Origin: Candidatus Koribacter versatilis Ellin345
GTDB taxonomy: Bacteria > Acidobacteriota > Terriglobia > Terriglobales > Acidobacteriaceae
Reading direction: 5' to 3'
DNA length: 64,000 nucleotides
Assembly: GCF_000014005.1 (NCBI RefSeq)
Contig: NC_008009.1
Location: forward strand, 372,001-436,000
A program made the translations under genes and the position numbers. Below the pieces are notes generated by a model. It was given only the letters and a program-made list of their open reading frames with translations, did not search any database and was not told where the DNA came from. Position 1 is the first letter of the stretch, and the number at the start of each line of letters is the position of its first letter. Shown one piece after another: positions 1,811 through 51,935 of the stretch.

Positions 1811-1945
1811 TGAACACACCTCCGGAAGGAGGATGAGGTGCAACTTAGGTGCCAAGTGAAGTCACTGAAACGCAATCGGTTGCGTGACGAAGCGAAGACA
1901 AGGCTGTTCAGGAACGATGCGCGATGTTCGAGACCGGACAGTGCT

Positions 1946-33282: not shown

Positions 33283-33352
33283 AAGAACAGCCTCCTTAAA
33301 TCCCGCTCGCCTCGAAAGGTGCGGGCAGTGGTACGAACCAGATTCTGTGGAT

Positions 33353-34081: not shown

Positions 34082-34142
34082 TTCGTCCTCCTGGCTGTTT
34101 TCCAGCCGCAAAGCCAATCTACGGAGGAGCGGAGCTGCGCAA

Positions 34143-34158
34143 TATGACTTATGTCACG
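34143..34158. promoter_or_regulatory. Crp/Fnr-type operator upstream of ric-norZ
   Basis: TATGAC-TTAT-GTCACG, near-perfect dyad with a 4-bp centre and the spacing of FNR/CRP sites, 62 bp upstream of the ric start. The same half-sites recur at 55904-55919. Confidence 0.6.
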
Positions 34159-34188
34159 GGAAGCTCCGATCTTCCGCGCGAGCGCGAG

Positions 34189-34211
34189 ACAGTGCACAAA
34201 AAACAGTGCAC
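34189..34211. repeat. short direct repeat in the regulatory region
   Basis: ACAGTGCAC at 34189-34197 and 34203-34211, 14-bp period, each containing the palindrome GTGCAC. Confidence 0.4.
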
Positions 34212-34272
34212 GAGTGGTTTTCTTTGCCGGGGATAGTCGCCAAAAAGAGCTGCGTCAGGCGTCATTTTTCGC

Positions 34273-34288
34273 TGTCCGGTTCCGGACA
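34273..34288. promoter_or_regulatory. perfect palindrome, candidate enhancer site for the operon's NtrC-type regulator
   Basis: TGTCCGG-TT-CCGGACA, 7-bp arms. It lies about 95-110 bp upstream of the -24/-12 element, the normal distance for an enhancer-binding-protein site. A half-site-like GGGACA follows at about 34304. Confidence 0.55.
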
Positions 34289-34383
34289 CTTTTCTCCGTC
34301 ACGGGACACACGGGGGTTTACAGACGATTCGAAGCACCTCTTTAACTACCAATTTTTACATGAGCTTACAGATGGCCCGGAGA

Positions 34384-34398
34384 TGGCGTTCGGCTTGC
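34384..34398 (+). promoter_or_regulatory. sigma-54-type -24/-12 promoter-like element
   Basis: TGGCGTTCGGCTTGC keeps the invariant GG-N10-GC and the TGGC/TTGC ends of the consensus. A transcript would start near 34409-34411, only a few bases before the chosen ATG at 34414, which would give an almost leaderless mRNA; this is a caution against the call or the start. Confidence 0.4.
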
Positions 34399-34413
34399 AC
34401 TTCTGTTTTCGTG

Positions 34414-35673
34414 ATGGATATCGCCCGCCCAGAATTCAAACAGCAAAAGCGCCGCCGCCAGATCATCATCGGCAGCGTCGCCGTAGTCATACTTGTCGCC
34501 ATTACTCTTGGAGTCTCCCGGCTCAAACCCGCTGCGCCGTCAGTAGAACGGAGCACCGTCTGGACTGACACGGTGAAGGAAGGCCCCATGCTGCGCCAGG
34601 TGCGCGGCCTCGGGACGCTCACCCCGACTCCAGAAGATGTCCGGCTGATTCCCGCCGAAACCGACGCCACCGTGCTGCGGATCGTGAAGCTCTCAGGTTC
34701 GCCGGTCAACTCTGACACGGTGCTCGTCGAAATGAGCAATCCCCAGGTTGAACAGGAGGCCGTGGACGCGAATTTGCAGCTCAAGGCCGCCGAAGCCGAG
34801 TACCAGAACCTGAAGGTGAAGCTCGACGCCGACCTGATGACGCAGAAGGCCGGTGCCGCTACCGTCGGAGCTGATTACAGCCAGGCGCAACGTCAAGCGT
34901 CGACCGACAAGGCCCTCTACGATCTCGGCGTGATTTCCGGCTTGGCCTATAAGGCTTCGCAGGGCAAAGCGGACGAGCTCACCACCCGCAACGATCTCGA
35001 AGGCCAGAAGCTCACCATCAACCAGAAAGCCATTGTTTCGCAGATGGCCGTGCAGCAGGCCAAGGTCGAGCAAATGCGCGCTCTCGCACAGCTGAAGCAG
35101 CGCCAGCTCGACAAGCTGAAGGTCCGCGCCGGCATCGATGGCTTGCTCGTTGATATGCCGTTGCAAGTTGGACAGCGCGTACTGGCGGGCGCAGTACTCG
35201 CAAAGATCGTCCAGCCAAACCGCCTCATGGCTTCGCTGAAAATTCCCGAAACCCAGGCACGTGACGTCCAAATCGGAGAGCCCGCCTCGGTGGATACCCA
35301 CAATGGCGTGGTGCAGGGCAGCGTGATGCGCGTAGATCCGGCGGTGGTGAACGGAACCGTCACGGTTGACGTAAAACTCACTGGCGACCTTCCGAAGGGC
35401 GCGCGTCCCGACTTGAGCGTGGATGGAACTATCGACCTCGAGCGTCTCGACAAAACTGTATACGTCGGGCGTCCGGCATTCGGGCAGGAGAACAGCACCA
35501 TCAGCCTCTTCCGCCTCGATCCGGATGGCAAGGGCGCAAGCCGGGTTCCGGTGAAAGTGGGCCGCACCTCGGTGAACACCATCCAGGTAATCGAAGGACT
35601 AAAGCCGGGCGACACGGTGATTCTCTCGGATATGTCGCGTTGGGATTCAAACGACAGGATTCGGTTGGACTAA
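34414..35673 (+). CDS. periplasmic adaptor (HlyD/MacA-type membrane-fusion protein)
   Basis: 419 residues. A short cytoplasmic basic stretch (FKQQKRRRQ) and one membrane anchor (IIIGSVAVVILVAITLGV, about 17-34) are followed by a split biotinyl-lipoyl domain, a long helical hairpin (about 110-230, QLKAAEAEYQNLKVKLDADL...QAKVEQMRALAQLKQRQLDKL) and a beta-barrel domain (GLLVDMPLQVGQRVLAGAVLAKI). It links inner-membrane MacB-like permeases to TolC. The ATG at 34414 (MDIARPEF) matches family starts; no ribosome site is seen. It is the first gene of the efflux operon, 32 nt before the ATPase. Confidence 0.9.
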   Translation: MDIARPEFKQQKRRRQIIIGSVAVVILVAITLGVSRLKPAAPSVERSTVWTDTVKEGPMLRQVRGLGTLTPTPEDVRLIPAETDATVLRIVKLSGSPVNSDTVLVEMSNPQVEQEAVDANLQLKAAEAEYQNLKVKLDADLMTQKAGAATVGADYSQAQRQASTDKALYDLGVISGLAYKASQGKADELTTRNDLEGQKLTINQKAIVSQMAVQQAKVEQMRALAQLKQRQLDKLKVRAGIDGLLVDMPLQVGQRVLAGAVLAKIVQPNRLMASLKIPETQARDVQIGEPASVDTHNGVVQGSVMRVDPAVVNGTVTVDVKLTGDLPKGARPDLSVDGTIDLERLDKTVYVGRPAFGQENSTISLFRLDPDGKGASRVPVKVGRTSVNTIQVIEGLKPGDTVILSDMSRWDSNDRIRLD

Positions 35674-35705
35674 GCAGGATTTGAAGTTTCTTTAGGAGAG
35701 TGGCG

Positions 35706-36428
35706 ATGAGCGAGAACGGACGTGCACTGATCCAGATCCAGGATCTAACCAAGGTTTTCTACACCGATGAGATCGAAACCCATGCATTGTCGGGCGTGCA
35801 TCTCGAGATCGAAAAGGGCGAATATGTCGCGATGTCCGGTCCGTCGGGCTGCGGAAAGTCCACGCTGCTCTCGATCATCGGCTTGCTCGACACCCCCACC
35901 GGCGGCAAGTACTACCTGAACAACAAGCCCGTCGAGAACCTCGATTTCGCCGACCGGTCGCGCATCCGCAACCAGGAAATCGGCTTCATCTTCCAGAGTT
36001 TCAACCTCATCGGCGATCTCACCGTTTATGAGAACGTTGAGCTGCCGTTGACCTATCGTCAGGGCATGGCGACGCCGAACCGCAAGCAGCGCGTGATGGA
36101 AGCGCTCGAGCGCGTCGGCATGGCGCACCGCATCCGCCACTATCCATCGCAGCTCTCCGGCGGTCAGCAGCAACGTGTGGCTGTGGCGCGCGCATTGGCC
36201 GGCAACCCGTCCATCCTGCTCGCGGACGAACCTACCGGAAACCTCGACTCGCGCAACGGCGAAGCGGTGATGGAACTGCTCCAGAACCTGCATCGTGAAG
36301 GCGCGACCATCTGCATGGTGACGCACGATCCGCGTTTCGCGGCGCATGCGCAACGGCAGATTCATCTCTTCGACGGCAAGGTTGTCGCGGAAGAAGAGCT
36401 CAAGAAATTGACCCAGGAAATTCACTAA
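35706..36428 (+). CDS. ABC transporter ATPase (MacB/LolD-type), first
   Basis: 240 residues. Walker [11 protein letters not shown]-loop [22 protein letters not shown], signature [15 protein letters not shown], Walker B ILLADEP with catalytic Glu, D-loop GNLDS and switch VTHD are all canonical. It powers MacB-like mechanotransmission rather than classical transport. AGGAG at the right distance supports the ATG at 35706 over a GTG at 35700. The next gene is a permease, 34 nt on. Confidence 0.95.
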
Positions 36429-36462: not shown

Positions 36463-38913
36463 ATGCGGGGATTCGCACAGGACCTGAGGTATTCGTTTCG
36501 CCAATTGAAGAAAAGTCCGGTGTTCGCGATCACCGCAGTGCTCACACTGGCGCTCGGAATCGGAGCCAACGTCGCCGTATTCTCGGTGATGAATGCGACC
36601 CTCTTGAATCCCAGCGGCGTGCCACACGCTGACGGCGTGGTCGCACTGCGCGCGGGCTATAACCAGGGCGACCTCGGCAACATTAATCTCTCGCCGCCGG
36701 ACTTCGAAGACGCTTCCGAAGGTAAGGAAGTCTTTACCTCCGCGGCCGTGATGAACGGCATGGACTACAACTACAGTCCGGATGGCGGCGGCACGCCCGA
36801 ACTGTTGCGTGGCGCGAAGGTCACCTGGCAGTGGTTCGACGTCTTCTGGGCGCAGCCGATGATGGGACGTGTCTTCCGTCCGGAAGAAGACCAGCCCGGT
36901 GCGGAACACGAGGTTGTCCTCGCTTACAGCGCGTGGCAAAAGCGTTTTGGTGGTGACCCGCACATTCTTGGCCGAAAGCTCCAGCTCAACCAGGAATCGT
37001 ATGAAGTTGTCGGCGTGATGGGCCCGGAATTCGCGTGGCCGAACCGCGCCGAAATGTGGACACCGCTGGCGCTCACTCCGAGCCGCTATACCGATCCCAA
37101 CTACCGCTTCAACGAATATCTGTTTGGCGTGGCGCGCTTACGGCAGGGCAAAACTCTCGCTGATGCCAACACGTACCTCACGCATCGCACGCAGCAGGTT
37201 TACCAAACCGGCGGTCGTCTTTCTGACTATGCGAAGTCTGCGCAGTGGCACCAGTTCGCAATGCCGCTGATCGAATTCGTATCCGGCAAAATGCAGAAGC
37301 CCCTGGCGTTCCTGCTCGGCGCCGTCGCGCTGGTGCTTTTGATTGCCTGCGCCAACATCGCTGGTCTGCAGTTGGCCCGCGCTTCGGGACGTCAACGTGA
37401 AGTCTCGATCCAGATCGCACTCGGCGGCTCACGCGGACGACTGATCCGCCAAGCCTTATCGGAGAGCGTGCTGCTGGCATTGTCAGGCGCGCTTCTCGGC
37501 GTGGTCGTCGCGAAGCTTTCGATCCCCTTGTTGCTCGCGCTTGCGCCGCCCAGCATTGGTCGCACTGTCAGCGCTCCCATGGACGCCCGCATGCTCCTCT
37601 TCGTTGCCGGCATCGGCGTGCTCTGCGCACTGCTTTGCGGAACTGCGCCCTCGTGGCACATGACGCACATTCGCTGGTTCCAGGCATTGCAGGAAGGTGG
37701 CCGCTCTGATTCCGCCAGCCCCGCGCGCCAGCGCACACGCTCTGCACTGGTCGTTGTCGAAATCGCCATCGCGATGTTGCTTTTGTTCGGCGCGGGATTG
37801 TTGGTACGCAGCATGAACACGATCCAGCAAGTTGAGACCGGCATGCAGCCACACGGTGTAATGACCGCTGCTTTGACGTTGCCCAAAGCCACGTACAAGA
37901 CCGACGAACAGCAGGCCAACTTCTACAACTCGCTTGAAGAGCAGTTGAAGCAGATCCCCGGCGTGCAGCACGCCGCGATTGTGGACTCGATCCCGTTCAG
38001 CAACGGGGGTGGTTCCGCTTCGTTCTTCATCGAAGGCAAGCCGGTAGCGAACGGCGCGCTCGGGCCACACGCAAACATTCGTTCGGTATCGCCCGAATAT
38101 TTCGAGACTCTCGGTATTCCGCTAATGCGTGGCCGCTTCTTCACTTCCGCCGATCGCGCGAAAACACAGCTTGTCGTGATCATTGATGACGTTCTCGCGC
38201 GCCAGTACTTCGGCGATAGCGACCCGATCGGTCAGCACATCAACTTCGGCGATCCGCCGGACAAAGATCCCTGGCGCGAGATCGTGGGCATCGTGCATCA
38301 CGCACGCGCCACGTCGCTGGAGAACGACACCAACGAAGGCTTCTACTACTTCCCAATGGCGCAAGCGCCGAACGACTCAAGCTTTATCGCCGTGAAAACG
38401 AACGGCGCGGCCGCGGGTCTCGTTGGGCCGATTCGCAATGCTGTGCGCAACGTCGATCCGAGCCAAGCCCTATATGACGTGAAGGCGATGGACGAGCGCG
38501 TCGATGACTCACTCATTGGCCGCCGTTTCCTCGTTGTCCTGCTCTCGGTATTCGCGGGCCTCGCGCTGCTACTCTCCGCCGTCGGATTGTATGGCGTAAT
38601 TGCATACTCCGTCCGTCTGCGTACCCGCGAACTCGGTGTGCGCATGGCCCTCGGCGCGCAACGCAGCGATGTCCTGAAACTCGTGCTCGGTCACGGCATG
38701 CAGCTGGCAGTCGCCGGCCTCGTCATCGGGTTAGGGACGGGACTTGCGCTCAGCAAAGTGTTCGAGAGTCTCTTATTCAAAGTTTCCGTCTTCAACCCCG
38801 TGGCGCTGCTTTCCACCTGCGCCCTGCTGATGGGAACCGTGTTGTTTGCAAGCTATCTACCGGCGCGCCGCGCGGCCAAGCTTGATCCCATCCGTACGTT
38901 GCGCGACGAGTAG
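36463..38913 (+). CDS. ADOP-type duplicated MacB/FtsX permease, copy A
   Basis: 816 residues. Layout: TM1 ([27 protein letters not shown]), MacB periplasmic core, FtsX block of three helices ([47 protein letters not shown]), then a second TM ([25 protein letters not shown]), second periplasmic domain and second FtsX block, ending [17 protein letters not shown]. So one chain equals a fused MacB dimer without ATPase domains. GAGGAGG precedes the ATG. First of four adjacent paralogues. Confidence 0.93.
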
Positions 38914-38923
38914 AGGAGCCATG

Positions 38924-41491
38924 ATGTTCGAGAACCTTATTCAGGATGTGCGTTACGCGTTCCGCCAGTTGCGGAAGTCGCCCGGCTTCGCCGCAACCGC
39001 GATCATCACGCTGACTCTCACCATCGGCGCCAATACCGCGATCTATAGCCTCTTCGACCAGGTCCTGCTGCGCAATCTGCCGGTGAAAGATCCGAAGGGT
39101 CTTGTCGTCTTCGAGTACAAAGGCTCGCACACTGGTTCCACCAACAATCACGGCGGCCCGTCGGGCGCTTACTTCTCGTATCCGATGTACAAGGACATTC
39201 GCGATCGCAACACTGTGTTCGACGGCGTGATCGCGTCCGATATTTCGCAAGTCGGCCTGCAGTGGCACAACCAGCCAGAGCTCGTGAACGCCGAACTCGT
39301 CAGTGGCAACTACTTCGATGTTCTCGGTGTTCGTCCGGCCGCCGGCCGCCTGTTTGTGCAGGCCGACGACGTGGTGCCGAATGGAAATCCGCTCGTTGTC
39401 CTCAGCTACTCGTATTGGCAGCGGCGCTTCGGGCTCGATCCCAAAGTAGTCGGCGATAACGTCCTCATCAACGGCCACCCATTCACCGTGATCGGCGTTT
39501 CAGCGCCGGGTTTCCAGAGCATGCAGACCGGCTACCTTCCAGCGATCTATACGCCGATGATGATGAAGGAACAGGTGACGCCCGGGTGGAACGACCTCGA
39601 CAATCGGCGCTCCATTTGGCTCAATATAATTGGCCGTCTGAAGCCCGGGATGACCATGGCGCAGGCAGAGGCAGGCCTGGATTCGCTCTGGCATTCGGCG
39701 CGCGAAGAAGAACTGAAAGAGGTTCGCAACAAGAGCGACAAGTTCCGCGAAAATTTTGGGCCGAAGAGCCACCTCTATCTTCACAACGGAGCGCGCGGCT
39801 TCTCGCTCCTCGACCAATATCGCATGCCGATGCTGATTGTGATGGGCATGGTGTTGCTCGTCGCAGTGATGGCGGCCGTGAACGTTGCGACGCTGTTGTT
39901 GGTTCGCGCGGCGACTCGCGTGAAAGAGATGTCGGTGCGCTACGCAATGGGCGCGCGCCGTACTCGCGTGATTCAACAGCTGCTGAGTGAAGGTTTGATC
40001 CTTGGACTCATCGGCGGTGCGCTCGGCATCGTCCTTGCTCCACAGGCCTCAGCGCTGCTTATTCGCAAAGCCTTTGCAGATTCCAACGGCAACGTGCCGT
40101 TCTCGTCCTCACCCGATATGCGTGTGCTGGCCTTCAATTTTGGGCTGGCGCTACTGGTGAGCCTGGTATTCAGCATTGCTCCGGCGGTCCAGTTCTGGCG
40201 GCCGAACCTCATACCCGCTCTTAAACAGCAAACCGTCACCACCGCGGGTGGCGCGTTGCGCTTCCGCAGACTGTCGGTCGCAGTGCAGGTCGGCGTGAGT
40301 CTAGTTCTTCTCGTGGGCGCCGGATTATTCGTACGCACCTTGGGCAATCTGAAGTCGGCGGATGTTGGCTTCGTCACCCAACACTTGATCACGTTCCAGA
40401 TCGATCCCCAGCTCGCCGGTTATGAAGACAATCAAACGGCCGTTCTTCACAAGCGCATCACCGACTCCCTGAAAGCCCTGCCCGGCGTACAGGCTGTGGC
40501 TTCCACCGCGGACCCGGAACTGGCGAACACGAATAGCTCGAGCAATTTCAGCATCGCCGGCATAACTGAGAAGGAAGGCGATGACATGAACGCCGAGTGG
40601 CCGAATGTCAGCGCCGGGTATTTCTCGGCGATGCAGATTCCGCTGATCACGGGCCGTGACTTTACCGAATCCGACGCCGCCGGTTCAGGCAATGTCGCTG
40701 TTATTAACGAAACGTTGGCAAAGAAGCATTTCGGATCGCCGGACAAGGCCATTGGCAAAGTGTTGGCCCGCGGCTCGGGAGACGACGCCAAGTACGACAT
40801 CCAGATCGTCGGCGTAGTGCGCGATTCGAAGCACACCAACGTTCGCGACGAAGTGAAACAAGCTCTCTTCACACCGTTATCGCAGATGCAGCACTGGGTG
40901 CGCGATCCGAAGAAGCCGGGCGCAAAGGAAGTGCTTGTGCCCGATCAGCCGGGGTTCCTCGCTTACTACGTGCGCACCTGGCAGCCGACCGCATCGGCGA
41001 TGAGCCAGATCCGCGGCGCAGTGCAGGGCGTGGATTCGAAGCTGGTGCTCGACACCTTCCGCACCATGGATGCACAGATTGACGACGACGTGAATACCGA
41101 GCGCATCATCGCCCTGCTCGCTTCGGGTTTCGGCATCCTCGCAGCGATCCTTGCGGCGGTCGGATTGTACGGCGTCCTCGCTTATTCCACGGCGCAGCGC
41201 ACCCGCGAGATCGGGGTACGCATGGCGCTTGGCGCCACCCGCATGTCCGTGGTCCGCATGGTGCTCACGGAAGTGCTCTGGCTCGCCGGCGCTGGAATTA
41301 TCGTGGCGCTGCCGGTATCCATCGTGCTCAGTCGGTTCATGCGGGCGCAGTTATACGGAGTGTCCCATTACGACCCGCTGACGGTTTTTGCGGTAGTGCT
41401 ACTGGTGACGCTGGTGGCGGTGGCAGCGGCGACGTTGCCGGCACGGCGTGCCGCTGGCATCGACCCGATGAAGGCATTGCGCTACGAGTAG
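38924..41491 (+). CDS. ADOP-type duplicated MacB/FtsX permease, copy B
   Basis: 855 residues, same architecture as copy A: TM1 (PGFAATAIITLTLTIGANTAIYSLFDQ), periplasmic core, FtsX block (VLLVAVMAAVNVATLLLVRAATRVKEMSVRYAMGARRTRVIQQ), second half (RLSVAVQVGVSLVLLVGAGLFVRT) and C-terminal PARRAAGIDPMKALRYE. It is the longest copy, with extra residues in both periplasmic domains (for example KEVLVPDQPGFLAYYVRTWQ). Start chosen at the second of two tandem ATGs because AGGAG (38914-38918) is better spaced. It starts 10 nt after copy A. Confidence 0.92.
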   Translation: MFENLIQDVRYAFRQLRKSPGFAATAIITLTLTIGANTAIYSLFDQVLLRNLPVKDPKGLVVFEYKGSHTGSTNNHGGPSGAYFSYPMYKDIRDRNTVFDGVIASDISQVGLQWHNQPELVNAELVSGNYFDVLGVRPAAGRLFVQADDVVPNGNPLVVLSYSYWQRRFGLDPKVVGDNVLINGHPFTVIGVSAPGFQSMQTGYLPAIYTPMMMKEQVTPGWNDLDNRRSIWLNIIGRLKPGMTMAQAEAGLDSLWHSAREEELKEVRNKSDKFRENFGPKSHLYLHNGARGFSLLDQYRMPMLIVMGMVLLVAVMAAVNVATLLLVRAATRVKEMSVRYAMGARRTRVIQQLLSEGLILGLIGGALGIVLAPQASALLIRKAFADSNGNVPFSSSPDMRVLAFNFGLALLVSLVFSIAPAVQFWRPNLIPALKQQTVTTAGGALRFRRLSVAVQVGVSLVLLVGAGLFVRTLGNLKSADVGFVTQHLITFQIDPQLAGYEDNQTAVLHKRITDSLKALPGVQAVASTADPELANTNSSSNFSIAGITEKEGDDMNAEWPNVSAGYFSAMQIPLITGRDFTESDAAGSGNVAVINETLAKKHFGSPDKAIGKVLARGSGDDAKYDIQIVGVVRDSKHTNVRDEVKQALFTPLSQMQHWVRDPKKPGAKEVLVPDQPGFLAYYVRTWQPTASAMSQIRGAVQGVDSKLVLDTFRTMDAQIDDDVNTERIIALLASGFGILAAILAAVGLYGVLAYSTAQRTREIGVRMALGATRMSVVRMVLTEVLWLAGAGIIVALPVSIVLSRFMRAQLYGVSHYDPLTVFAVVLLVTLVAVAAATLPARRAAGIDPMKALRYE

Positions 41492-41495
41492 GTGA

Positions 41496-43913
41496 ATGAT
41501 GACCGGCTTACTTCAAGATCTGCGATATGCATGGCGCCAACTGCGCAAGAGCCCCGGCTTTACCGCCGTCGCTGTGCTCACGCTGGCGCTCGGCATCGGC
41601 GCGAATGCCGTGGTACTGGCGGCCGTGCAGTCGGTGCTGATCGCACCGCTGCCGTATCGCGACGCCGACCGCATCATCGCGCTGAATACGCAGTTCACCA
41701 ACGAAGGCCGCAGCATCAACCGCGTTACCGGCGCCGATTTAATGGACATTGAGGCGCAGTCGAAATCGTTCGAACAGGTTGCGTACTACTTCGGCGGCGA
41801 GATGGGCGTACAGTTGCCCGACCACGCAGCCTTCACTGGCGTGCAAGGCGCGACTGCGAACTTCGCGAACGTCTTCGGTGTAACGCCAGTTGCTGGGAGA
41901 CTATTCAATGATAGCGAGGCCACGCACTCTGCGCTGATCAACGCCAACTTTGCGCGCGACAACTTCGGCAGCGTGGAAGCCGCCGTCGGCAAGTCGCTCA
42001 GCGTCGAAGGCACGACCTACGACATCGTCGGCGTGTTGCCCGGTGAGTTCAGCTTCCCCAAGGGCACCCAGGTCTGGATGGGCGTATCGGACACTCCCGA
42101 AGCTGAGTGGTCACATCGCACTTCTTATAACTTCCGTTCCGTCGCGAAGGTTAAGGCTGGCGTTTCGATGACGGCCGCGCAGTCGGAACTGAACACCATT
42201 GGCGATCGCCTCCGCATCGCGTATCCGGCTGACAACAAGAACAAAGCGTTCCTCGCGGTTTCGCTACAAGAACAGTTGGTCGGCAAAGTACGCCCCATGT
42301 TTCTGCTGCTCGTCGGTGCCGTTGCATTGATCCTGCTCATCGCCTGTGTGAACGTCGCGCATTTGCAGTTGGCGCGGGCCACCACCCGAACCAAAGAAGT
42401 CGCATTGCGTAGCGCGCTCGGCGCCTCGCGCACGCGGGTGGTGCGCCAAGTGTTTCTCGAAAGCCTGGTGCTCGCGTTCCTCGGAGCAGGTGTCGGCCTA
42501 CTGATTGCCGTTCCGCTCCTTCGCAGCTTCCTGCGCCTCGCGCCGACGGACATCCCGCGCCTCAACGAAGTCCACATCAGCGCGCCGGCAATCGCATTGA
42601 TCGCTGTGGTCAGCGTGATTGCGACGCTGCTCTCCGGCGTTGCACCCGCATGGCAGTCGCTGCGGCTGAACGTCAACGAATCGTTGAAACAGGACACCTC
42701 GCGCGGCATGGTAGGCCGCGGCGTCTCGAAGCTTCGTAACGTACTGGTCGTCGCGGAGATCGCGTTGACCTTCGTTCTTGCCGCTGGCGCAGGCTTGCTG
42801 GTGCGCACCATGATCAAGCTCAACGCGACCGATCCCGGCTATCGCAGCGACCATCTGCTCGTAATGTATGTGCACGCTCCGGCGAAAGGTTTGCTGGAGA
42901 ATTTGCAGCGCACGCAGCAGATGGAAACGCTCTTCGATCAGCTGCGCGCCGTTCCCGGCGTAACGGCGGTCGCCGGTGTGATGGGCCTGCCCGCCGGCCA
43001 ATACGGTTCCAACGGTGGCTACCAGATCAGCGGCCAGACGCTGCCTGCCTCACTTGACGACCTGCCGCAGGCAAACTGGGCGTTGAGCAGTCCACAGTAT
43101 TTCTCGACCATGGGCATTCCTTTGCTGCGCGGACGCGACTTCCAGAAGAGTGATACGCACGATTCGGAACCCGTCGCGATCATCAGCGATGCGATGGCGA
43201 AACAGAGTTTTGGCAACAGCGATCCCATCGGCAGGCAGCTCCGTTGCGGGCTCGATGAAGAGAGCGGGAAGTGGATGACCATCGTCGGCGTTGTCGGCGA
43301 TGTTCGCCAGGATTCACCCGCTTCCACTCCGCGTGCCACCTTATATCTGCCGCTGAAGCAGCACCCCTTCCGCGCGAACGAGTTGCAAGTCGTGATGCAC
43401 ACCGAACTGCCGCCGCTCACGCTGATGGAGACGGCGCGCAAGATGGTGCAGGGCATGGATCCGCGCATCGCTACGAAGTTCACCACCATGGATTCCATGC
43501 TGGCAGAATCCACCGCCACGCCGCGCTTCCGTAGCTGGCTCGTCGGCGGGTTCGCAAGCCTAGGCTTAATTCTGGCGATGCTCGGCATCTACGGCGTGAT
43601 GGCGTATACCGTGGCGCAGCGCACCTTCGAAGTCGGCGTGCGCATGACTTTCGGCGCGCAACCCGGCGACATCCTCGGCATGGTGCTCGGCCGTGCGATG
43701 CGCCTCACAGTCATTGGTGTAGTAGTCGGTCTGGTGCTTGCCGCCGCTTCATCGCGGCTCATTGCGAGCATGTTGTTCGGGGTCCCCGCAGAAGATCCGG
43801 TTTCATTTGGCGTGGCGTGCGGTTTATTGGCGCTGGTGGCGTTGGCCGCGGCGTACTTCCCAGCGCGCCGGGCAGCATCGGTGAATCCTCTTACGGCAAT
43901 TCGGTACGAGTGA
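41496..43913 (+). CDS. ADOP-type duplicated MacB/FtsX permease, copy C
   Basis: 805 residues. TM1 ([30 protein letters not shown]), periplasmic core, FtsX block (LLVGAVALILLIACVNVAHLQLARATTRTKEVALRSALGASRTRVVRQ), second half (KLRNVLVVAEIALTFVLAAGAGLLVRTM) and end PARRAASVNPLTAIRYE. Tandem ATGs at 41496 and 41499 are both possible. It starts 4 nt after the copy B stop, so translation is probably coupled. Confidence 0.92.
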   Translation: MMTGLLQDLRYAWRQLRKSPGFTAVAVLTLALGIGANAVVLAAVQSVLIAPLPYRDADRIIALNTQFTNEGRSINRVTGADLMDIEAQSKSFEQVAYYFGGEMGVQLPDHAAFTGVQGATANFANVFGVTPVAGRLFNDSEATHSALINANFARDNFGSVEAAVGKSLSVEGTTYDIVGVLPGEFSFPKGTQVWMGVSDTPEAEWSHRTSYNFRSVAKVKAGVSMTAAQSELNTIGDRLRIAYPADNKNKAFLAVSLQEQLVGKVRPMFLLLVGAVALILLIACVNVAHLQLARATTRTKEVALRSALGASRTRVVRQVFLESLVLAFLGAGVGLLIAVPLLRSFLRLAPTDIPRLNEVHISAPAIALIAVVSVIATLLSGVAPAWQSLRLNVNESLKQDTSRGMVGRGVSKLRNVLVVAEIALTFVLAAGAGLLVRTMIKLNATDPGYRSDHLLVMYVHAPAKGLLENLQRTQQMETLFDQLRAVPGVTAVAGVMGLPAGQYGSNGGYQISGQTLPASLDDLPQANWALSSPQYFSTMGIPLLRGRDFQKSDTHDSEPVAIISDAMAKQSFGNSDPIGRQLRCGLDEESGKWMTIVGVVGDVRQDSPASTPRATLYLPLKQHPFRANELQVVMHTELPPLTLMETARKMVQGMDPRIATKFTTMDSMLAESTATPRFRSWLVGGFASLGLILAMLGIYGVMAYTVAQRTFEVGVRMTFGAQPGDILGMVLGRAMRLTVIGVVVGLVLAAASSRLIASMLFGVPAEDPVSFGVACGLLALVALAAAYFPARRAASVNPLTAIRYE

Positions 43914-43920
43914 GGACACT

Positions 43921-46338
43921 ATGACGACATTGATGCAGGACGTTCGATACGCCTTCCGCCAGCTTTACAAGAAGCCCGGCTTTTCGTTTACAGCGGTCTT
44001 CACTATCGCCCTCGCGATTGGCGTCGCGACCGCCGTCTTCAGTGTCCTGTACGCGATCCTCATCCGTCCGCTGCCCTTCGATCAGCCCGACAAGATTTTC
44101 TTCCTGCAAGGCTATTCGCCGCAGGGATACACCCAGCCCGCCGCCTACCCCGAGTACCTGCACTGGCGCCGCAACACCCAGAGTTTCAGCGCCCTCGCCG
44201 GCTATTCGCGCGGCTCTGCGAATTTTGAAACCAACGGCGGTCCGGTACCGATCACCAGCGTCAGCACCACCGACAACTTCTTCCAAGTCTTCGGCGTGAA
44301 TCCGATCCTCGGACGCACCTTCGCCGATGGCGAAGACCAGCCCGGCAAGAACGATGTCGTCGTGCTCAGCTATGAATCCTGGCAGCAGGACTTCGGCGGC
44401 CGCCAGGACGTTACCGGCGCGACCGCGAAAATTGATGGCCGACCGTACTCCATCATTGGCGTAATGCCCGCTGGCTTCCGCTATCCGATCAGCGCTGCTC
44501 ACGCCGTGTACTTGCCACTGCACATCCCCAAAGACCTTGCCGAATCCAAAGGCTCGCACTGGATGCCCATGGTTGCGCGCTTGAAGAATGGCGTTACCTC
44601 GAAGCAGGCGGAAGACGACATGGGCCGTGCTATGGAATCCTATGCCGTGGAGAATCCCGACGCCAAGGGCCGTCGCATGAACATCGAAGGCATCGCCGCG
44701 CACGTAGTCGGCGATACCGGCGCTCCTCTCAAGGTCCTGCTCTTCGCGGTTCTCGCGGTGCTCGGCATCGGCTGCGCCAACTTCGCCGGACTCTTGCTTG
44801 CTCGCGGTGTGAAGCGCGAACGTGAAGTTGCTGTGCGCTCCGCCATCGGCGCGACCCGCACTCGCCTTGTCCGCCAAATGCTCACCGAGACCGTGATGCT
44901 CGCGATCGCCGGCACTCTGGGCGGAGTCCTGCTGGCCTTCCTCCTGCTCTCCGGAATCACCAAGCTCCTCATTGCCGCTCTCGCTCGCGGCGCCGACGTT
45001 CAGATCAACATCCCCGTTCTGGTCGCCTCGCTCGCGGTTGCGATCATCACCGCACTCGTCGCCGGTGTGGTTCCTGCGCTTCGTCTGTCGAGCATTGCCC
45101 CGTCGTTGGCGCTCAAAGCCGGTGGCAGTGCAGGCTCTGCCCGCGGACAGCATCATCTCCGTGCGGTCTTCATCGTTACCCAGATCGCACTCGCGCTCGT
45201 CCTTCTCGTTACCTCCGGCCTGCTCATGCGCACGCTCGCCGGCCTGCGCAGCACCGACCTCGGCTTCACCACCAACAACATGATCGCCACCGAACTCGAT
45301 CTTTCGCGCGGCGCCTACGAAAATCGCGACGTCGTCACCGAGTTCTACAACCCGCTGATGGAAAAAGTTCAGGCGATCCCCGGCGTCAAAGCCGCCGGCA
45401 TGATCCAGATCATCCCCATCCAGAACTGGGGATGGAACAGCGATGTCCAAATCGTCGGCAAGCCTCCCGCGCCCAAAGGCCAGGAGCAACTCGCCGAGTA
45501 CCGTGTCGTGACCCCCGGCTATTACAGCGCCATGGGCATCCGCCTCTTGCGCGGCCGCCTCATCGATCCCAAGCTCGATAATCGCAACACAAAGCCGGTG
45601 ACGGTCGTGAACGAAGCCTTCGTGAAGAAGTTTTTCGCGCCCGGAGAAGATCCAGTCGGCCAGCATCTCTCCGACGACGACAAGACCGAAATCGTCGGCG
45701 TCGTCAGCGACGTTCGTCAGAACATCTACGCCCCGCCGCTCGCCGAGATGGACTACGCTGTCTCACAAGTTTCTGCGAAGAACGCCTTCGGGTATCTCTC
45801 CAGCATGCAACTCGTAGTGCGCACTTCCATGGATCCCGCGGGCATGATGGGCAGTCTGCGCAATGCACTTCACGAAGTTGATCCCGGCGTTCCTTCCCGT
45901 ACTCCGGAAACGATGAAAGACGTCATCGCAGAAGTGCTCATCTTCGAGCGCCTGGAAAACTGGCTCTTCGGTACTTTCGCCGCGCTCGCGATCCTTTTGT
46001 CGATCGTCGGTCTTTATGGGCTCATCAGCCACGAAGTGGATCTCTCCATTCGCGACATCGGTGTGCGCATGGCATTAGGCGCTACGCGCGCACAAGTTCT
46101 CGCGGGCGTTTACAAACGCGTCGGCCTCTTGCTCGCTATTGGAGTTGCCGGTGGACTCATCATGACCATGGCCGTGCAGAAAATTTTGTCGGCGCTGGTG
46201 GTCCTGCATCTCGGCAAGGATGCGGTCACCATCGTCTCTCTTGCAGCAGGATTAGCATTGTTCGGATTACTGGCAGCACTGCTGCCTGCGCGGCGAGCGG
46301 CTTCTACCGAGCCGATGACCGCGCTTCGTTACGAATAG
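43921..46338 (+). CDS. ADOP-type duplicated MacB/FtsX permease, copy D
   Basis: 805 residues. TM1 (PGFSFTAVFTIALAIGVATAVFSVLYAILIRPL) differs from the GIGAN form of the other copies. Periplasmic core, FtsX block (LLFAVLAVLGIGCANFAGLLLARGVKREREVAVRSAIGATRTRLVRQ), second half (LRAVFIVTQIALALVLLVTSGLLMRT) and end PARRAASTEPMTALRYE follow. It starts 7 nt after copy C with GAGG upstream. The four copies are clearly diverged, so this is not a recent tandem duplication. Confidence 0.92.
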   Translation: MTTLMQDVRYAFRQLYKKPGFSFTAVFTIALAIGVATAVFSVLYAILIRPLPFDQPDKIFFLQGYSPQGYTQPAAYPEYLHWRRNTQSFSALAGYSRGSANFETNGGPVPITSVSTTDNFFQVFGVNPILGRTFADGEDQPGKNDVVVLSYESWQQDFGGRQDVTGATAKIDGRPYSIIGVMPAGFRYPISAAHAVYLPLHIPKDLAESKGSHWMPMVARLKNGVTSKQAEDDMGRAMESYAVENPDAKGRRMNIEGIAAHVVGDTGAPLKVLLFAVLAVLGIGCANFAGLLLARGVKREREVAVRSAIGATRTRLVRQMLTETVMLAIAGTLGGVLLAFLLLSGITKLLIAALARGADVQINIPVLVASLAVAIITALVAGVVPALRLSSIAPSLALKAGGSAGSARGQHHLRAVFIVTQIALALVLLVTSGLLMRTLAGLRSTDLGFTTNNMIATELDLSRGAYENRDVVTEFYNPLMEKVQAIPGVKAAGMIQIIPIQNWGWNSDVQIVGKPPAPKGQEQLAEYRVVTPGYYSAMGIRLLRGRLIDPKLDNRNTKPVTVVNEAFVKKFFAPGEDPVGQHLSDDDKTEIVGVVSDVRQNIYAPPLAEMDYAVSQVSAKNAFGYLSSMQLVVRTSMDPAGMMGSLRNALHEVDPGVPSRTPETMKDVIAEVLIFERLENWLFGTFAALAILLSIVGLYGLISHEVDLSIRDIGVRMALGATRAQVLAGVYKRVGLLLAIGVAGGLIMTMAVQKILSALVVLHLGKDAVTIVSLAAGLALFGLLAALLPARRAASTEPMTALRYE

Positions 46339-46353
46339 GGAACTGAGAAAAAG

Positions 46354-47064
46354 ATGATTCAACTGAAAAATGTCGAACGCAGTTACAAGACCGGAGCCGG
46401 GCAGACCTGGGTCCTGCGTCGCATCGGGTTGGATATTCAACCGGGTGAGTTCATCACCATCATGGGGCCATCAGGCGCGGGCAAATCGTCGCTCCTCAAC
46501 GCACTTGCCTTGCTCGACGACCAATGGGCCGGCGAGTACTGGTTCAAGGGCGAAGCCGTCCACGACATGAAGCGCAAGCAGCGTGCCGACATCGCGAAGA
46601 AGCACATCGGCATGGTCTTCCAGAGCTATCACCTTCTCGACGACCTCACCGTGCAGGAGAACATCGATCTGCCGCTCTCCTACAAAGACATCCCAAAGAG
46701 CGAGCGCCAGAGCATGGTGGCCGACACCCTCGATCGCTTCCAGATCGTCGCGAAAAAAGACCTCTATCCCAACCAGTTGTCCGGCGGACAACAGCAGTTG
46801 GTCGGCATTGCGCGTGCAGTGATTCACAATCCCGCGTTGCTGCTCGCCGACGAACCCACCGGCAACCTGCATTCCAGCCAGGCCAAGGAGATCATGGAGC
46901 TGTTCAAGGAACTCAACCAGCAAGGCACGACCATCGTGCAGGTCACGCACTCGGAAGTGAATGCCTCCTATGGCACGCGCACGCTGCAAATGCGCGATGG
47001 ATGGCTCGTGGGCGACACATCCAACCCGAACCTGCAATTCCAGGGCGAGGCGGCCACCCGATGA
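46354..47064 (+). CDS. ABC transporter ATPase (MacB/LolD-type), second, with altered D-loop
   Basis: 236 residues. Walker A GPSGAGKSS, Q-loop VFQSYHLLDDLTVQENIDLPL and Walker B LLLADEP are intact. The signature reads LSGGQQQLVGIARAV (Leu where Arg is usual), the D-loop is GNLHS instead of GNLDS, and the switch region is VTHSE rather than VTHD. It probably still hydrolyses ATP but may pair with the canonical ATPase as a heterodimer. It is 15 nt after copy D and overlaps the TolC-type gene by 4 nt. Confidence 0.93.
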   Translation: MIQLKNVERSYKTGAGQTWVLRRIGLDIQPGEFITIMGPSGAGKSSLLNALALLDDQWAGEYWFKGEAVHDMKRKQRADIAKKHIGMVFQSYHLLDDLTVQENIDLPLSYKDIPKSERQSMVADTLDRFQIVAKKDLYPNQLSGGQQQLVGIARAVIHNPALLLADEPTGNLHSSQAKEIMELFKELNQQGTTIVQVTHSEVNASYGTRTLQMRDGWLVGDTSNPNLQFQGEAATR

Positions 47065-49049
47065 ATGATCGCTTTGCAACCCGGCTCCGCAAGACCGTCA
47101 GTCTCCTGTGTGTTTACGCGACCTTCGCCAGCACCACCGCGGCGATGGCGCAGAACACCACTGCAGGCCCGAACGCGAATAACGTCCCGGATGCACCCCC
47201 GGCACCTACCGCCGCGTCGGCCTTCAACGTCCAGGTGCCCCACAGCCATAACCCGCTGGGTCCTTACACGCCAAGCCACGTCGCGGCGCCGGTGCTTTCG
47301 AATTCGCCGCGGCTCGCTTCGCTGATTCGCGATGGCAAACTGTACTTATCGCTGAACGATTCCATCGAACTGGCGTTGGAAAATAATCTCGACCTTGCCA
47401 TTGCGCGCTACAACGTCCCCATTGCCGATACGGATATCCTCCGTACCAAGGCTGGCGGCTCGTTCCGCGGCGTTAATACCGGTGTGGTGCAGGGAACTCC
47501 GGGCGGCGGCGTGGGTGGCTTCGGCTCCGGTGCTCCGGGCGCAGGCGCGGGCGGTACGTCTAGCGGCGCAGGTGGCGCGGGCGCTGGTGCGGCTGGTCTC
47601 GTGCAATCCACGCTCGGCAGCGGTACGTTCGTCAACAGCTTCGATCCGCAGATCAACGCCAACATCGGCGTCGAACACGCGACGTCGCCTCTTTCCAACC
47701 AGACGATCTACGGTGTGCCCAGCCTGCAGTTGAACACCACTACCGGTAACTTCAATTATCAACAGGCGTTCGCCACCGGCACGCAGATTTCTTTCGACTT
47801 CAACAACAACCGTCAGATCACGAACAGCCCCAACAACAATCTCAATCCCTCACTGAATTCGCTTTACCGCATTTCTTTACAGCAACCATTGCTCGCCGGT
47901 TTCGGCTTTGGCCCGAACCTGCGCTATCTGCGTATTGCAAAGAACAACAAGAAAATTTCCGACATCGCCTTCAAAGATCAGGTCACTGCGACTGTCACGC
48001 AGATCGCCAACATCTATTGGGACCTCGTGGGTGCTTTCGAGCAAGCGCGCGTGAATCAACAGTCGCTCGACTTCGCCAACCAGACGCTCGACAACACCCG
48101 CAAGCAGTTAAAGCTCGAAGCCGTACCCGAGATGGATGTACTGCGTGCCGAGGCCGAAGTTTCTAAGCGCGCACAAGACTTGACCGTCGCCAATACCAAC
48201 CTCGAGTTGCAGGCATCGCTCATCAAGAACGCGATCACCCGCTCTCTGGATGATCCGGTTCTCGAAGCTATGCCCGTGGTTCCGACCGATCGCATGGACA
48301 CCACCGAACCGGTAACGCCGCAAAACTTGGTGGACCTCATTACCCACGCGTTGCAGTCCCGTCCGGAACTTCTCGAGTCGGATATTGACCTCGAGAACCG
48401 GCGCATCAGCCAGAAAGCCACGCGGAATGCGCTGTTGCCGTCTGTGAACCTCGTCGGCTTCTACGGCAGTGCTGGTCTCGCCGGTCTCGCGAACCCGGCC
48501 TTCGTAGGCGACAACCCGATTACCGTCCCGCCGGATTGGGGTGGATCAATTGAGAATGCGTTCAACGGTTCATCGCCGGATTACTACGTCGGCGTCAACG
48601 TGAACATCCCTATTCGCAACCGCATCGCCAAGGCTGACCAGTTCCGTTCCGAGTTGGAATACCGACAGTCGGAGTTGCGGCGGGAGCAATTGAAAAAGCA
48701 GATCCGCATCGAAGTCCGCAACGCCCAGTATGCCTATGAACAGACGGCCGCCCGTGTGGAAGCCGCGATCAAGGCCCGCGACCTGGCGCAACGCACCTTC
48801 GAAACCATGAAGAAAGAGCAGGACCTGGGTGCCGGTTCGATCTACCAGACTATGACTGCGCAACGCGACTTGGCGTTGGCATCACTCGATTTGGTGACCG
48901 CGCAGACCATCTACCAGAAATCGAAAGTCGAACTTGATCGTGCGACGGCCCAGACTTTAGAACATAATGGCGTCCACATCCAGGAGGCGATCACCGGCGT
49001 GGTCGCCGCGAACCCTGCCGAGAAACCGGCAGGAACGGAGATTAGATGA
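47061..49049 (+). CDS. TolC-family outer-membrane efflux protein
   Basis: 662 residues with a signal peptide (about 1-30, AMAQ). Two OEP domains show the duplicated helical/barrel pattern (LSLNDSIELALENNLDLAIARYNV; DLITHALQSRPELLESDIDLENRRISQKATRNALLPSVNLVGFYG; VGVNVNIPIRNRIAKADQFRSELEYRQSELRREQLKKQIRIEVRNAQYAYEQ). An unusual Gly/Ala-rich insert (GGGVGGFGSGAPGAGAGG and onward, about residues 150-190) interrupts the first domain. The ATG overlaps the ATPase stop (ATGA), which fixes the start. It forms the outer-membrane channel of the exporter. Confidence 0.93.
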   Translation: MNDRFATRLRKTVSLLCVYATFASTTAAMAQNTTAGPNANNVPDAPPAPTAASAFNVQVPHSHNPLGPYTPSHVAAPVLSNSPRLASLIRDGKLYLSLNDSIELALENNLDLAIARYNVPIADTDILRTKAGGSFRGVNTGVVQGTPGGGVGGFGSGAPGAGAGGTSSGAGGAGAGAAGLVQSTLGSGTFVNSFDPQINANIGVEHATSPLSNQTIYGVPSLQLNTTTGNFNYQQAFATGTQISFDFNNNRQITNSPNNNLNPSLNSLYRISLQQPLLAGFGFGPNLRYLRIAKNNKKISDIAFKDQVTATVTQIANIYWDLVGAFEQARVNQQSLDFANQTLDNTRKQLKLEAVPEMDVLRAEAEVSKRAQDLTVANTNLELQASLIKNAITRSLDDPVLEAMPVVPTDRMDTTEPVTPQNLVDLITHALQSRPELLESDIDLENRRISQKATRNALLPSVNLVGFYGSAGLAGLANPAFVGDNPITVPPDWGGSIENAFNGSSPDYYVGVNVNIPIRNRIAKADQFRSELEYRQSELRREQLKKQIRIEVRNAQYAYEQTAARVEAAIKARDLAQRTFETMKKEQDLGAGSIYQTMTAQRDLALASLDLVTAQTIYQKSKVELDRATAQTLEHNGVHIQEAITGVVAANPAEKPAGTEIR

Positions 49050-50461
49050 CCCAGAGTGCCACCACAGGGAACCCAAAACTAATAACAACGCCCGCGCGCT
49101 CCGAGCGCGCGGCCCGCATTTTGGCGGCGGATGACCAGGAACACATTCTCGACGCACTCAAGATCCTCCTGCGCCCCGAAGGCTACGAGGTAGACACCGC
49201 GAAGTCCCCGGTGATGGTGCGCGAGTTGCTCAATAGTAACTCGTACGACGCGCTGCTCATCGACCTCAATTACACCCGCGATACGACGTCGGGCCGCGAA
49301 GGCCTCGACTTGCTCTCCGAAATCGTCGCACAGGACAGCACCGTGCCTGTGATCGTGATGACCGCATGGGGCAGCATTGATGTCGCCGTCGAAGCCATGC
49401 GCCGGGGCGCACGCGACTTCATCCAGAAGCCTTGGGAAAACGAGCGGCTCCTGACGATTCTCCGTACCCAGGTCGAACTGTACCGAACCCTGCAGCGCGC
49501 CGAGCGGTTGCAGGCAGAGAACCAGTTGCTCCGCGCGACGGGCCTGCCGCAACTCATCGCGACGGCGCCATCGATGCAGCCAGTGCTCGATTCCATCGCC
49601 CGCATCGGTCCCTCCGACGCCAACGTTCTCATCACCGGCGAACACGGCACCGGTAAAGAAGTCGTCGCACAGACACTGCACGGCATCTCGCAGCGAGCTT
49701 CGAAGACACTCGTAGCCGTGAACACCGGCGCGTTGCCCGACACGCTCTTCGAAAGCGAACTTTTCGGCCACGTCAAAGGCGCTTTCACCGATGCCCGCAC
49801 CGACCGCATCGGACGCTTCGAATTAGCTGACGGGGGCACCATCTTCCTGGACGAAATCGGCAACGTTCCTGTCCGCCAGCAGGCAAAACTTCTCCGGGTA
49901 CTCGAAACCGGCGAGATCGAACGCGTTGGCTCCTCGAAGAGCCGCCGCGTCAATGTGCGCGTAATCTCCGCCACCAACACAGATCTTCGAGCAGCCTCGG
50001 CGCAAGGACAGTTCCGCGAGGATCTTCTTTTCCGCCTCAACACCGTCGAGATCCACATTCCACCTCTGCGCGAGCGTCGTGAGGACATCGCCGCACTTGC
50101 GCTGCACTTCCTCAAACGCTATGCCGAACGTTATCGCCGGCCGGTGCAGGGCTTGGAGAAGAGCACGCTGCAGGCGCTCATGCAATACAGTTGGCCCGGC
50201 AATGTCCGCGAACTGGATCACACCATGGAGCGCGCCGTGCTCATGGCGCGCGGTAACGAGCTTGCTCCGGCAGATCTCGGACTGGTGCAGCAGAAGCAGC
50301 AGAGCAGCCCGAATTTGGAAGAATTGAGCATCGAGTCGGTGGAGAGTATTCTCATCCGCAAAGCTCTCCAGCGTTACCACGGCAACGTCAGCCAGGCCGC
50401 CGAAGCGCTGGGCTTGAGCCGTGGGGCTCTCTATCGCCGAATGGAGAAATATGGTCTCTGA
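49046..50461 (+). CDS. NtrC-family sigma-54-dependent response regulator
   Basis: 471 residues. Receiver domain about 25-145 with phospho-acceptor D73 (LLIDLNYTRD), T106 and K128; AAA+ domain with Walker A GEHGTGKE (198-205), GAFTDA at 245-250 (the sigma-54 contact loop, usually GAFTGA), Walker B IFLDEIGN (266-273); and a C-terminal Fis-type HTH (GNVSQAAEALGLSRGALYRRMEKYGL). Its start overlaps the TolC-type stop by 4 nt. It should activate sigma-54 promoters, most simply the operon's own. Confidence 0.95.
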   Translation: MTQSATTGNPKLITTPARSERAARILAADDQEHILDALKILLRPEGYEVDTAKSPVMVRELLNSNSYDALLIDLNYTRDTTSGREGLDLLSEIVAQDSTVPVIVMTAWGSIDVAVEAMRRGARDFIQKPWENERLLTILRTQVELYRTLQRAERLQAENQLLRATGLPQLIATAPSMQPVLDSIARIGPSDANVLITGEHGTGKEVVAQTLHGISQRASKTLVAVNTGALPDTLFESELFGHVKGAFTDARTDRIGRFELADGGTIFLDEIGNVPVRQQAKLLRVLETGEIERVGSSKSRRVNVRVISATNTDLRAASAQGQFREDLLFRLNTVEIHIPPLRERREDIAALALHFLKRYAERYRRPVQGLEKSTLQALMQYSWPGNVRELDHTMERAVLMARGNELAPADLGLVQQKQQSSPNLEELSIESVESILIRKALQRYHGNVSQAAEALGLSRGALYRRMEKYGL

Positions 50462-51935
50462 CGACCCGCCGGAGCGGACCATGGGGTTCGCCGCGGGCAG
50501 CGGCCAGCACTCGGAACGCGCCAAGGCCGCGATCGCTAACACCCGCTCGGCGGACGAGGCCCCATCGCGAACCGCCGCGCCCTTCCGCACCAAGCGCTCG
50601 CGCATTCGCTACGAAAGGCGCGTGCTGCTGCTGGCCTTCCTCGTTGCGCTGCCCAGCATGATCGTCAGCGTCATTCTTGTTCTCATTCAGAAATGGACGA
50701 TTGACGCCAAAATCGCGCTGCTCGCCGGCGAGAGCATCGCGTGGCTCCTGCTCGTTCTCGCCCAGCATGAGCAGATTGTGCGTCCGTTGCAAACCTTGAC
50801 CAATGTGGTCGCCGCACTCCGCGAAGAGGACTACTCGTTCCGTGCTCGCGGCGCCGCCATGGACGACGCGCTCGGCGAACTAGCCATCGAAGTCAATGCC
50901 CTCGCCGACGTGCTCACCATCCAGAAGACCAGCGCGATCGAAGCCACCGCACTGCTGTCGCGCATTGTCGAAGAAATTGACGCACCGCTCTTTGCCTTCG
51001 ATCCCGAACACAAACTTAAGCTCGTAAATTCCGCTGGCGAGCGCCTCCTGCAGCAGCCCGCCACAAAACTTCTCGGATCCACTGCCACCGAACTAAACCT
51101 GCAAGTGGCCTTTGAGGCCGAAAGCGAATCGCTCGTTCCATTGCCCTACAGCCCGAACTCGCGCTGGATGGTGCGCCGCAGCAGCTTCCGCCAGGATGGC
51201 GTTCCGCACACGCTGATCGTTCTCTCTGACGTTAGCCGCGCCCTCCGCGAAGAAGAGCGGAGTGCCTGGCAGAAACTCATTCGTGTGCTCGGCCACGAAC
51301 TCAACAACTCGCTCGCACCCATCAAGTCCATCGCCGGCAGCCTGAACTCACGCTTGAAGCGCACGTCCCTCAGCGACGAAGAACGCGAAGACTTCGAAAA
51401 GGGCCTCTCCATCGTCGAAGGCCGCGCCGAGTCGCTAAACCGCTTCCTTCAGGCCTATCGCCAGTTGGCGACCATGCCCCCGCCGAAGCTCAAGCTTGTC
51501 TCCATGAAGTCGCTGGTGGAACGCGTCGCCGGGCTCGAAACCCGCGTCGTCGTCGAGGTGCGTAATAATCCCGACGTTCATTTGCAGGCCGATCCCGACC
51601 AGCTCGAGCAGATGATGATCAACCTGGTCAAGAACGCCGTAGAAGCCTCCAAAGAAATGCAGCAGCCTGAAACTCCGGAACCGCCGGAAGTCATCGTTGG
51701 CTGGGATGCCGAGCCCGCGGCCATCATCCTCAAAGTCGAAGACAACGGCCCCGGCATCATGAACCCGAGCAATGCCTTCGTTCCGTTCTATACGACGAAG
51801 CAGGGAGGCAGCGGCATCGGCCTCGTTCTTTCACGCCAGATCGCCGAAGCCCACGGCGGCCGCCTAGAGTTGATCAACCGCGAAGGCACCCGCGGCTGCA
51901 TGGCGCGCGTCACCCTCCCCCGCGGACGCGATTAG
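50451..51935 (+). CDS. NtrY-type sensor histidine kinase
   Basis: 494 residues. One or two membrane helices (VLLLAFLVALPSMIVSVILVLIQ; LLAGESIAWLLLVLAQ, about 58-105) enclose almost no periplasmic sensor. Then a HAMP-like segment, a PAS domain (RIVEEIDAPLFAFDPEHKLKLVN), the phospho-His motif GHELNNSLAPIKS (H282), N-box NLVKNAVEAS, DNGPGI and GSGIGL. A lack of periplasmic domain suggests sensing within the membrane or by the PAS. The start at 50451 follows GGAG and overlaps the regulator by 11 nt. Confidence 0.93.
   Translation: MVSDDPPERTMGFAAGSGQHSERAKAAIANTRSADEAPSRTAAPFRTKRSRIRYERRVLLLAFLVALPSMIVSVILVLIQKWTIDAKIALLAGESIAWLLLVLAQHEQIVRPLQTLTNVVAALREEDYSFRARGAAMDDALGELAIEVNALADVLTIQKTSAIEATALLSRIVEEIDAPLFAFDPEHKLKLVNSAGERLLQQPATKLLGSTATELNLQVAFEAESESLVPLPYSPNSRWMVRRSSFRQDGVPHTLIVLSDVSRALREEERSAWQKLIRVLGHELNNSLAPIKSIAGSLNSRLKRTSLSDEEREDFEKGLSIVEGRAESLNRFLQAYRQLATMPPPKLKLVSMKSLVERVAGLETRVVVEVRNNPDVHLQADPDQLEQMMINLVKNAVEASKEMQQPETPEPPEVIVGWDAEPAAIILKVEDNGPGIMNPSNAFVPFYTTKQGGSGIGLVLSRQIAEAHGGRLELINREGTRGCMARVTLPRGRD

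Follow-up and report, generated by a model that had tools for sequence, protein, structure and literature searches.

The analysed window, a stretch of 64,000 nucleotides from the genome of Candidatus Koribacter versatilis Ellin345, carries on its plus strand an operon for an ABC efflux system composed of a periplasmic adaptor, two ATPases, four permeases of the ADOP type (acidobacterial duplicated orphan permease) and an outer membrane channel. The initial annotation had described this operon as ending with a sigma-54 activator and a kinase, and the domain searches do find the genes of an activator with receiver, AAA and Fis-type domains and of a sensor histidine kinase at its end. The operon and the element that precedes it comprise the following features:

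34273..34288, strand not applicable: proposed activator box 1, perfect palindrome TGTCCGGTTCCGGACA (TGTCCGG-TT-CCGGACA), read directly; TGTCC-N6-GGACA kept in 28 loci
34293..34308, strand not applicable: proposed activator box 2, imperfect copy TCTCCGTCACGGGACA, exactly 20 bp from box 1; dyad at +20 kept across orthologs
34384..34399, plus strand: predicted sigma-54 -24/-12 promoter TGGCGTTCGGCTTGCA, read directly; position kept in orthologs, RpoN encoded in the genome
34408..34412, plus strand: predicted transcript start, 12 nt past the C of the -12 motif and about 4 nt before the ATG, from canonical sigma-54 geometry
34414..35673, plus strand: HlyD-type periplasmic adaptor, first gene of the operon (PF13437, TIGR01730)
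35700..36428, plus strand: ABC ATPase 1, MacB/LolD type (PF00005)
36463..38913, plus strand: ADOP permease 1 (TIGR03434, 934.9 bits; cut-off 622.3)
38921..41491, plus strand: ADOP permease 2 (TIGR03434 above cut-off; C1:410936-413488)
41496..43913, plus strand: ADOP permease 3 (TIGR03434 above cut-off)
43921..46338, plus strand: ADOP permease 4 (TIGR03434, 816.6 bits)
46354..47064, plus strand: ABC ATPase 2 (PF00005)
47061..49049, plus strand: TolC-type outer membrane channel (PF02321)
49046..50461, plus strand: sigma-54 activator with receiver, AAA and Fis-type HTH domains (PF00072, PF00158, PF02954) and a GAFTDA loop, proposed to bind the boxes
50421..51935, plus strand: sensor histidine kinase (PF02518); by hydropathy, two membrane helices separated by a very short loop

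The genes of the operon are tightly packed; the TolC and activator genes overlap, as do the activator and kinase genes, so that both regulatory genes should share the transcript from the promoter at 34384-34399. The two membrane helices of the kinase, joined by a very short loop, suggest sensing within or at the membrane. Divergently oriented on the minus strand (30997-34081) lie a RIC gene (iron-sulfur repair, NO-related) and a NorB-type gene, and just beyond the latter a Crp/Fnr-type regulator gene is located (29800-30504, plus strand). Upstream of the RIC gene, the palindrome TGAC-TTAT-GTCA (34145-34156) resembles a Crp/Fnr-family site. The intergenic region shared by the RIC and HlyD genes also contains a direct repeat, two copies of CAGTGCAC at 34190-34197 and 34204-34211, 14 bp apart, which is not obviously kept in the nearest relative (L016).

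The element upstream of the adaptor gene

The palindrome at 34273-34288 and, about 95 bp downstream of it, TGGCGTTCGGCTTGC with its GG-N10-GC signature had both been noticed in the initial annotation, and a direct reading confirms them. TGGCGTTCGGCTTGC, at 34384-34398, has a TGG and TTGC core; between the last base of the palindrome (34288) and the T of TGG there are exactly 95 bp, and the HlyD-type gene starts with the ATG at 34414. Taken singly, neither motif is significant, since both are near chance: within the 64-kb window palindromes with up to three mismatches number six against 4.3 expected, and sigma-54-like sites with up to two mismatches 18 against 13.8, which is the background in either case, while the TGGCGTTCGGCTTGC site itself has three mismatches to the sigma-54 consensus used. 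A genome scan finds the perfect 16-mer palindrome only once in 5,650,368 bp; the composite pattern, TGTCC-N6-GGACA followed after 75-105 bp by TGG-N9-TGC, likewise occurs a single time in the 5.65-Mb genome, where its reversed form, used as a control, gives no match. Chance was rejected as the origin of the composite, though its single motifs stand at background. No sigma-70-like promoter was seen in the region 33500-35000.

The comparison drew on 36 related loci. Both parts of the element could be aligned in 28 loci, counting the window, and in all of these the composite is kept upstream of the adaptor gene. When the alignment is anchored on the box, the conserved columns read TGTCCg.....GGACA and are followed at +20 bp by a second dyad, tTCCg...GGACA, which played no part in the selection of the loci. 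The alignment anchored on the promoter brings out TGG and TTGC, the GG and GC of which stand out partly by selection. The spacer measures 92-96 bp in 25 of the 28 loci. In a relative of the same genus (L185, which seems to be the L016 locus) it is 72 bp, as compared with 95 bp in the window, the boxes lying about two helical turns nearer to the promoter with the phase retained. A paralogous HlyD-ATPase locus (L031) shows no activator gene in the 10 kb examined and neither motif upstream; its genome also contains a locus (L037) with the activator and the motifs.

The distance from the C of the -12 motif to the start codon is equally constrained, amounting to 13-17 nt in 27 of the 28 loci, from which canonical sigma-54 geometry predicts a leader of 2-6 nt. 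The HlyD mRNA is accordingly predicted to be nearly leaderless, with its 5' end near 34410, much as the initial annotation had supposed when it found no ribosome-binding site; the footprint of the 28 loci likewise contains no Shine-Dalgarno consensus. Leaderless genes were estimated by Zheng et al. (PMC3160421) at about 13% in Acidobacteria, an estimate derived from sigma-70-type signals only. An ordinary leader would result if the adaptor actually started upstream, at the in-frame ATG at 34360 that extends the open reading frame to 437 residues, or if transcription began further upstream. This we consider unlikely: position 34360 precedes the predicted transcript start, and the conserved beginning of the protein is MDIARP with its ATG or GTG. 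Moreover, the start codon at 34414 is supported by two distant orthologs (L133 and L134), in which a Shine-Dalgarno sequence fronts the corresponding MDI beginning; the family footprint is devoid of such a consensus.

Composite sites in other genomes and the choice of activator

Among the matches listed for 80 relatives, 34 are to the composite, in 19 genomes, and five to the reversed control; in a set of 250 genomes of the family the composite is present in 103, with about 150 matches against seven to the control among those listed. The genes downstream of 57 distinct sites (gap of 75-105 bp) are the HlyD gene of this operon in 25 cases and an ADOP gene in 20, the remaining ones including two genes of REC-SpoIIE phosphatases, one of a winged-helix/AAA regulator and one of a DUF4097 protein. 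Outside the class, in a 297-genome sample of the phylum, the exact composite is near background, with a handful of exceptions, among them G327. The spacer lengths of 149 sites have their maxima at 82 and 94 bp and almost never fall at 85-88 or 98-101 bp (Rayleigh R of 0.65, as against 0.30 at the 99.9th percentile of the uniform null). Such phasing agrees with the expectation for DNA looping from a constant helical face. A search with shorter gaps yielded sites before HlyD, ADOP and TolC genes at 60-61 and 70-74 bp, except for one at 51 bp in L190; in three of these cases the match falls on the second of two tandem boxes.

Some sites precede genes of other kinds. In L120 (plus strand) and L218 the box and promoter lie before a gene whose product joins a response regulator to a SpoIIE-type phosphatase; as this gene is oriented divergently to the HlyD operon in L120, a second branch of signalling may belong to the regulon. 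A large regulator with winged-helix (Trans_reg_C) and AAA ATPase domains, a possible member of the regulon, follows the composite in two genomes (L140 and L187). It is also worth mentioning that a different family, f2, contributes two genomes (L193 and L194) in which the composite, with a spacer of 71 bp, stands before a TolC-type gene.

The genome encodes RpoN (TIGR02395, 381.9 bits with the neighbour in frame, above the cut-off) and about 21 sigma-54 activators. The one encoded by the operon has the receiver, sigma-54 AAA and Fis-type HTH domains of an NtrC-type enhancer-binding protein. Its sigma-54 contact loop reads GAFTDA, a variant of the GAFTGA found in most other activators of the genome, and this variant recurs in nearly all the orthologs inspected. 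The recognition helix, LGLSRGALYRRMEKYGL, is kept in the orthologs and sets the protein apart from the remaining activators of the genome. The composite is present in 24 of the 43 genomes with an ortholog of the activator and in three of the 37 without one (p = 4e-6, kinship ignored); 19 genomes with the ortholog have no exact composite match. Identification of the activator with either of the curated families nearest to it, PrsR (TIGR02915, 397.7 bits; curated cut-off 502.6) and NtrC proper (TIGR01818, 382.0 bits; curated cut-off 558.6), was rejected on these cut-offs.

With so many activators encoded in the genome, the boxes and the promoter could be real and yet serve another enhancer-binding protein, the activator of the operon acting elsewhere, and the three genomes in which a composite match is found with no ortholog of this activator would fit such an arrangement. 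Two of these three matches, however, are unassigned or likely due to chance (L119 and L181) and the third comes from a fragmented draft assembly, so we hold this explanation to be improbable. The activator of the operon is favoured as the regulator because it is encoded on the operon itself, co-occurs with the composite and has a distinctive, conserved recognition helix.

That the palindrome is instead an intrinsic terminator hairpin, or a site for the divergent RIC and NorB genes, beside a chance -24/-12 match is scarcely credible and already contradicted by the comparative data: a simple scan does list the palindrome as terminator-like, the region is shared with the RIC gene and a lone GG-N10-GC match is common, but the stem is variable, the box is duplicated at 20 bp with no conserved T run and keeps a helical phase with the -24/-12 site, and it stays with the HlyD gene in orthologs beside which RIC or NorB genes were not found, for which reasons both forms of this reading were rejected.

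The element is best explained as an enhancer and a sigma-54 promoter that would serve the tripartite ABC efflux operon. The interpretation offered in the initial annotation is supported in large part: the sigma-54 promoter with the spacing of an enhancer site is borne out, as a prediction, by an arrangement kept in 28 loci, by the phased spacer and by the presence of RpoN, and the proposed autoregulation by the co-occurrence and the recognition helix described above. Box 2 (34293-34308) and the dispersed ADOP regulon had been missed.

Dispersed ADOP permease genes

The scan for the box and promoter was extended to 37 ADOP genes of the genome, 36 of them above the TIGR03434 cut-off (622.3 bits), with weight matrices trained on other genomes only. 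A box and -24/-12 pair precedes 12 of the 37, compared with 0.1-0.3% of random windows, and nearly all the remaining ADOP genes lack it; eight of the 12 pairs are strong and in four the promoter is weak in score. The spacers (40, 42, 61, 70, 71, 79, 80, 83, 90, 91, 91, and 93 bp) follow roughly the same helical series as the composite sites. One of the 12 genes lies within the window:

1925..1940, minus strand: box TGTCCGGTCTCGAACA, upstream of another ADOP gene in the window (palindrome scan and matrices)
1839..1854, minus strand: strong predicted sigma-54 promoter TGGCACCTAAGTTGCA, separated by a 70-bp spacer from the box at 1925-1940
1..1810, running off the window, minus strand: ADOP permease gene behind the promoter at 1839-1854 (open reading frame; TIGR03434; C1:371189-373801)

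The gene at 1..1810 has a normal leader with a Shine-Dalgarno sequence. Occurrence of the same switch, with matched rotational spacing, before many unconnected ADOP genes suggests one common regulator, and co-regulation of the pump operon with about 12 ADOP genes is thereby supported as a prediction.

The ADOP loci of this genome compared for their class of control (L052-L081 and L108-L114) point to a second type of regulation, a PadR gene being situated directly upstream of 14 ADOP genes, none of which is among the 12 (Fisher p = 9e-4). Descent of the sigma-54-class genes from one duplicated lineage was rejected, as 12 label changes are required for the 12 genes (mean of 10.2 after shuffling), and in the tree of the 37 ADOP proteins well-supported sister pairs differ in their type of control. 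The sigma-54 label being unclustered on this tree, the module appears to have been acquired and lost on repeated occasions.

Proposed regulation and its relation to known systems

We consider it highly probable, on the strength of the genomic comparisons, that the NtrC-type activator encoded by the operon acts through sigma-54 to turn on the pump operon in which it lies as well as a set of scattered "orphan" ADOP genes. In the proposed mechanism the kinase would phosphorylate the activator upon a membrane or transport-related signal, dimers of the activator would occupy both boxes, which are offset by 20 bp, and a loop in the DNA would allow the AAA ring to remodel the sigma-54 polymerase at 34384-34399. 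Transcription would then begin at about 34410, leaving some 4 nt ahead of the ATG, as geometry and conservation suggest, and the adaptor would be translated from a leaderless mRNA. As the activator and kinase genes are on the same transcript, the loop would be one of positive autoregulation; the same activator most likely turns on the roughly 12 scattered ADOP genes through their own box and -24/-12 pairs. Against this model it has to be said that it leaves unaccounted for the supply of the activator before the loop is turned on.

It may be guessed that the scattered ADOP permeases use the adaptor, ATPases, and channel of the pump. A broader picture would make the ADOP "orphans" interchangeable permease subunits of one tripartite pump, a single sigma-54 activator co-inducing its adaptor, ATPases and channel along with a scattered set of permeases; unrelated ADOP genes would have acquired the module again and again, swapping it with PadR control, and the first gene of the pump operon would be read from a leaderless mRNA made by sigma-54. 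This picture is tentative and, taken as a whole, rather doubtful.

The shared control element would tie about one third of the ADOP genes of the genome to a single pump operon and a single two-component system and thereby offers a tangible starting point for identifying possible ATPase partners and inducers of this large acidobacterial family, for which no known partner, regulator or function was found in the literature. The cis-element is precise enough for predicting regulons across the family, and the operon promoter appears to be a clean natural case of a helically phased enhancer combined with a sigma-54 promoter that leaves the mRNA almost leaderless. Searches on ADOP regulation and on sigma-54 in Koribacter or Acidobacteria returned nothing relevant, and no description of the regulon, the motif or the ADOP link was found in the literature searched, in which subscription journals are thinly covered.

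The mechanism itself is classical and already known. As in MacAB-TolC and the darobactin exporter DarBCD, the operon combines an adaptor, an ATPase, an FtsX-type permease and a TolC channel, and its ATPases are nearest to DarD and MacB; they miss the curated DarBCD and MacB cut-offs, however, and the operon differs in having four permeases and putative sigma-54 control. To our knowledge, following the family description, ADOP genes are without ATPase neighbours. The scattered targets belong to this family (TIGR03434), as do the four permeases encoded in the operon; the latter, however, adjoin two ABC ATPases, an adaptor and TolC, and are thus not orphans. With NtrC, AtoC, and ZraR the system shares an activator with receiver, AAA and Fis-type HTH domains, an adjacent kinase and tandem palindromic enhancers upstream of a -24/-12 promoter, whereas its targets and box are different and no equivalog cut-off is reached by the activator.

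Among published systems the nearest parallel found is that of the PEP-CTERM genes under PrsK/PrsR, a regulon discovered by phylogenetic profiling (Haft et al. 2006, PMC1569441). There, too, a two-component sigma-54 activator is associated with scattered genes of envelope proteins, preceded by a repeated motif and a -24/-12 promoter at limited spacing. The logic is the same, but the motif, spacing, activator and targets are other: motif 1 of PrsK/PrsR is a 17-mer ending in TTTACA with a mean spacer of 63 bp, as compared with TGTCC-N6-GGACA at 61-94 bp here; the activator misses the PrsR cut-off, and the proposed targets are an efflux operon and ADOP permeases.
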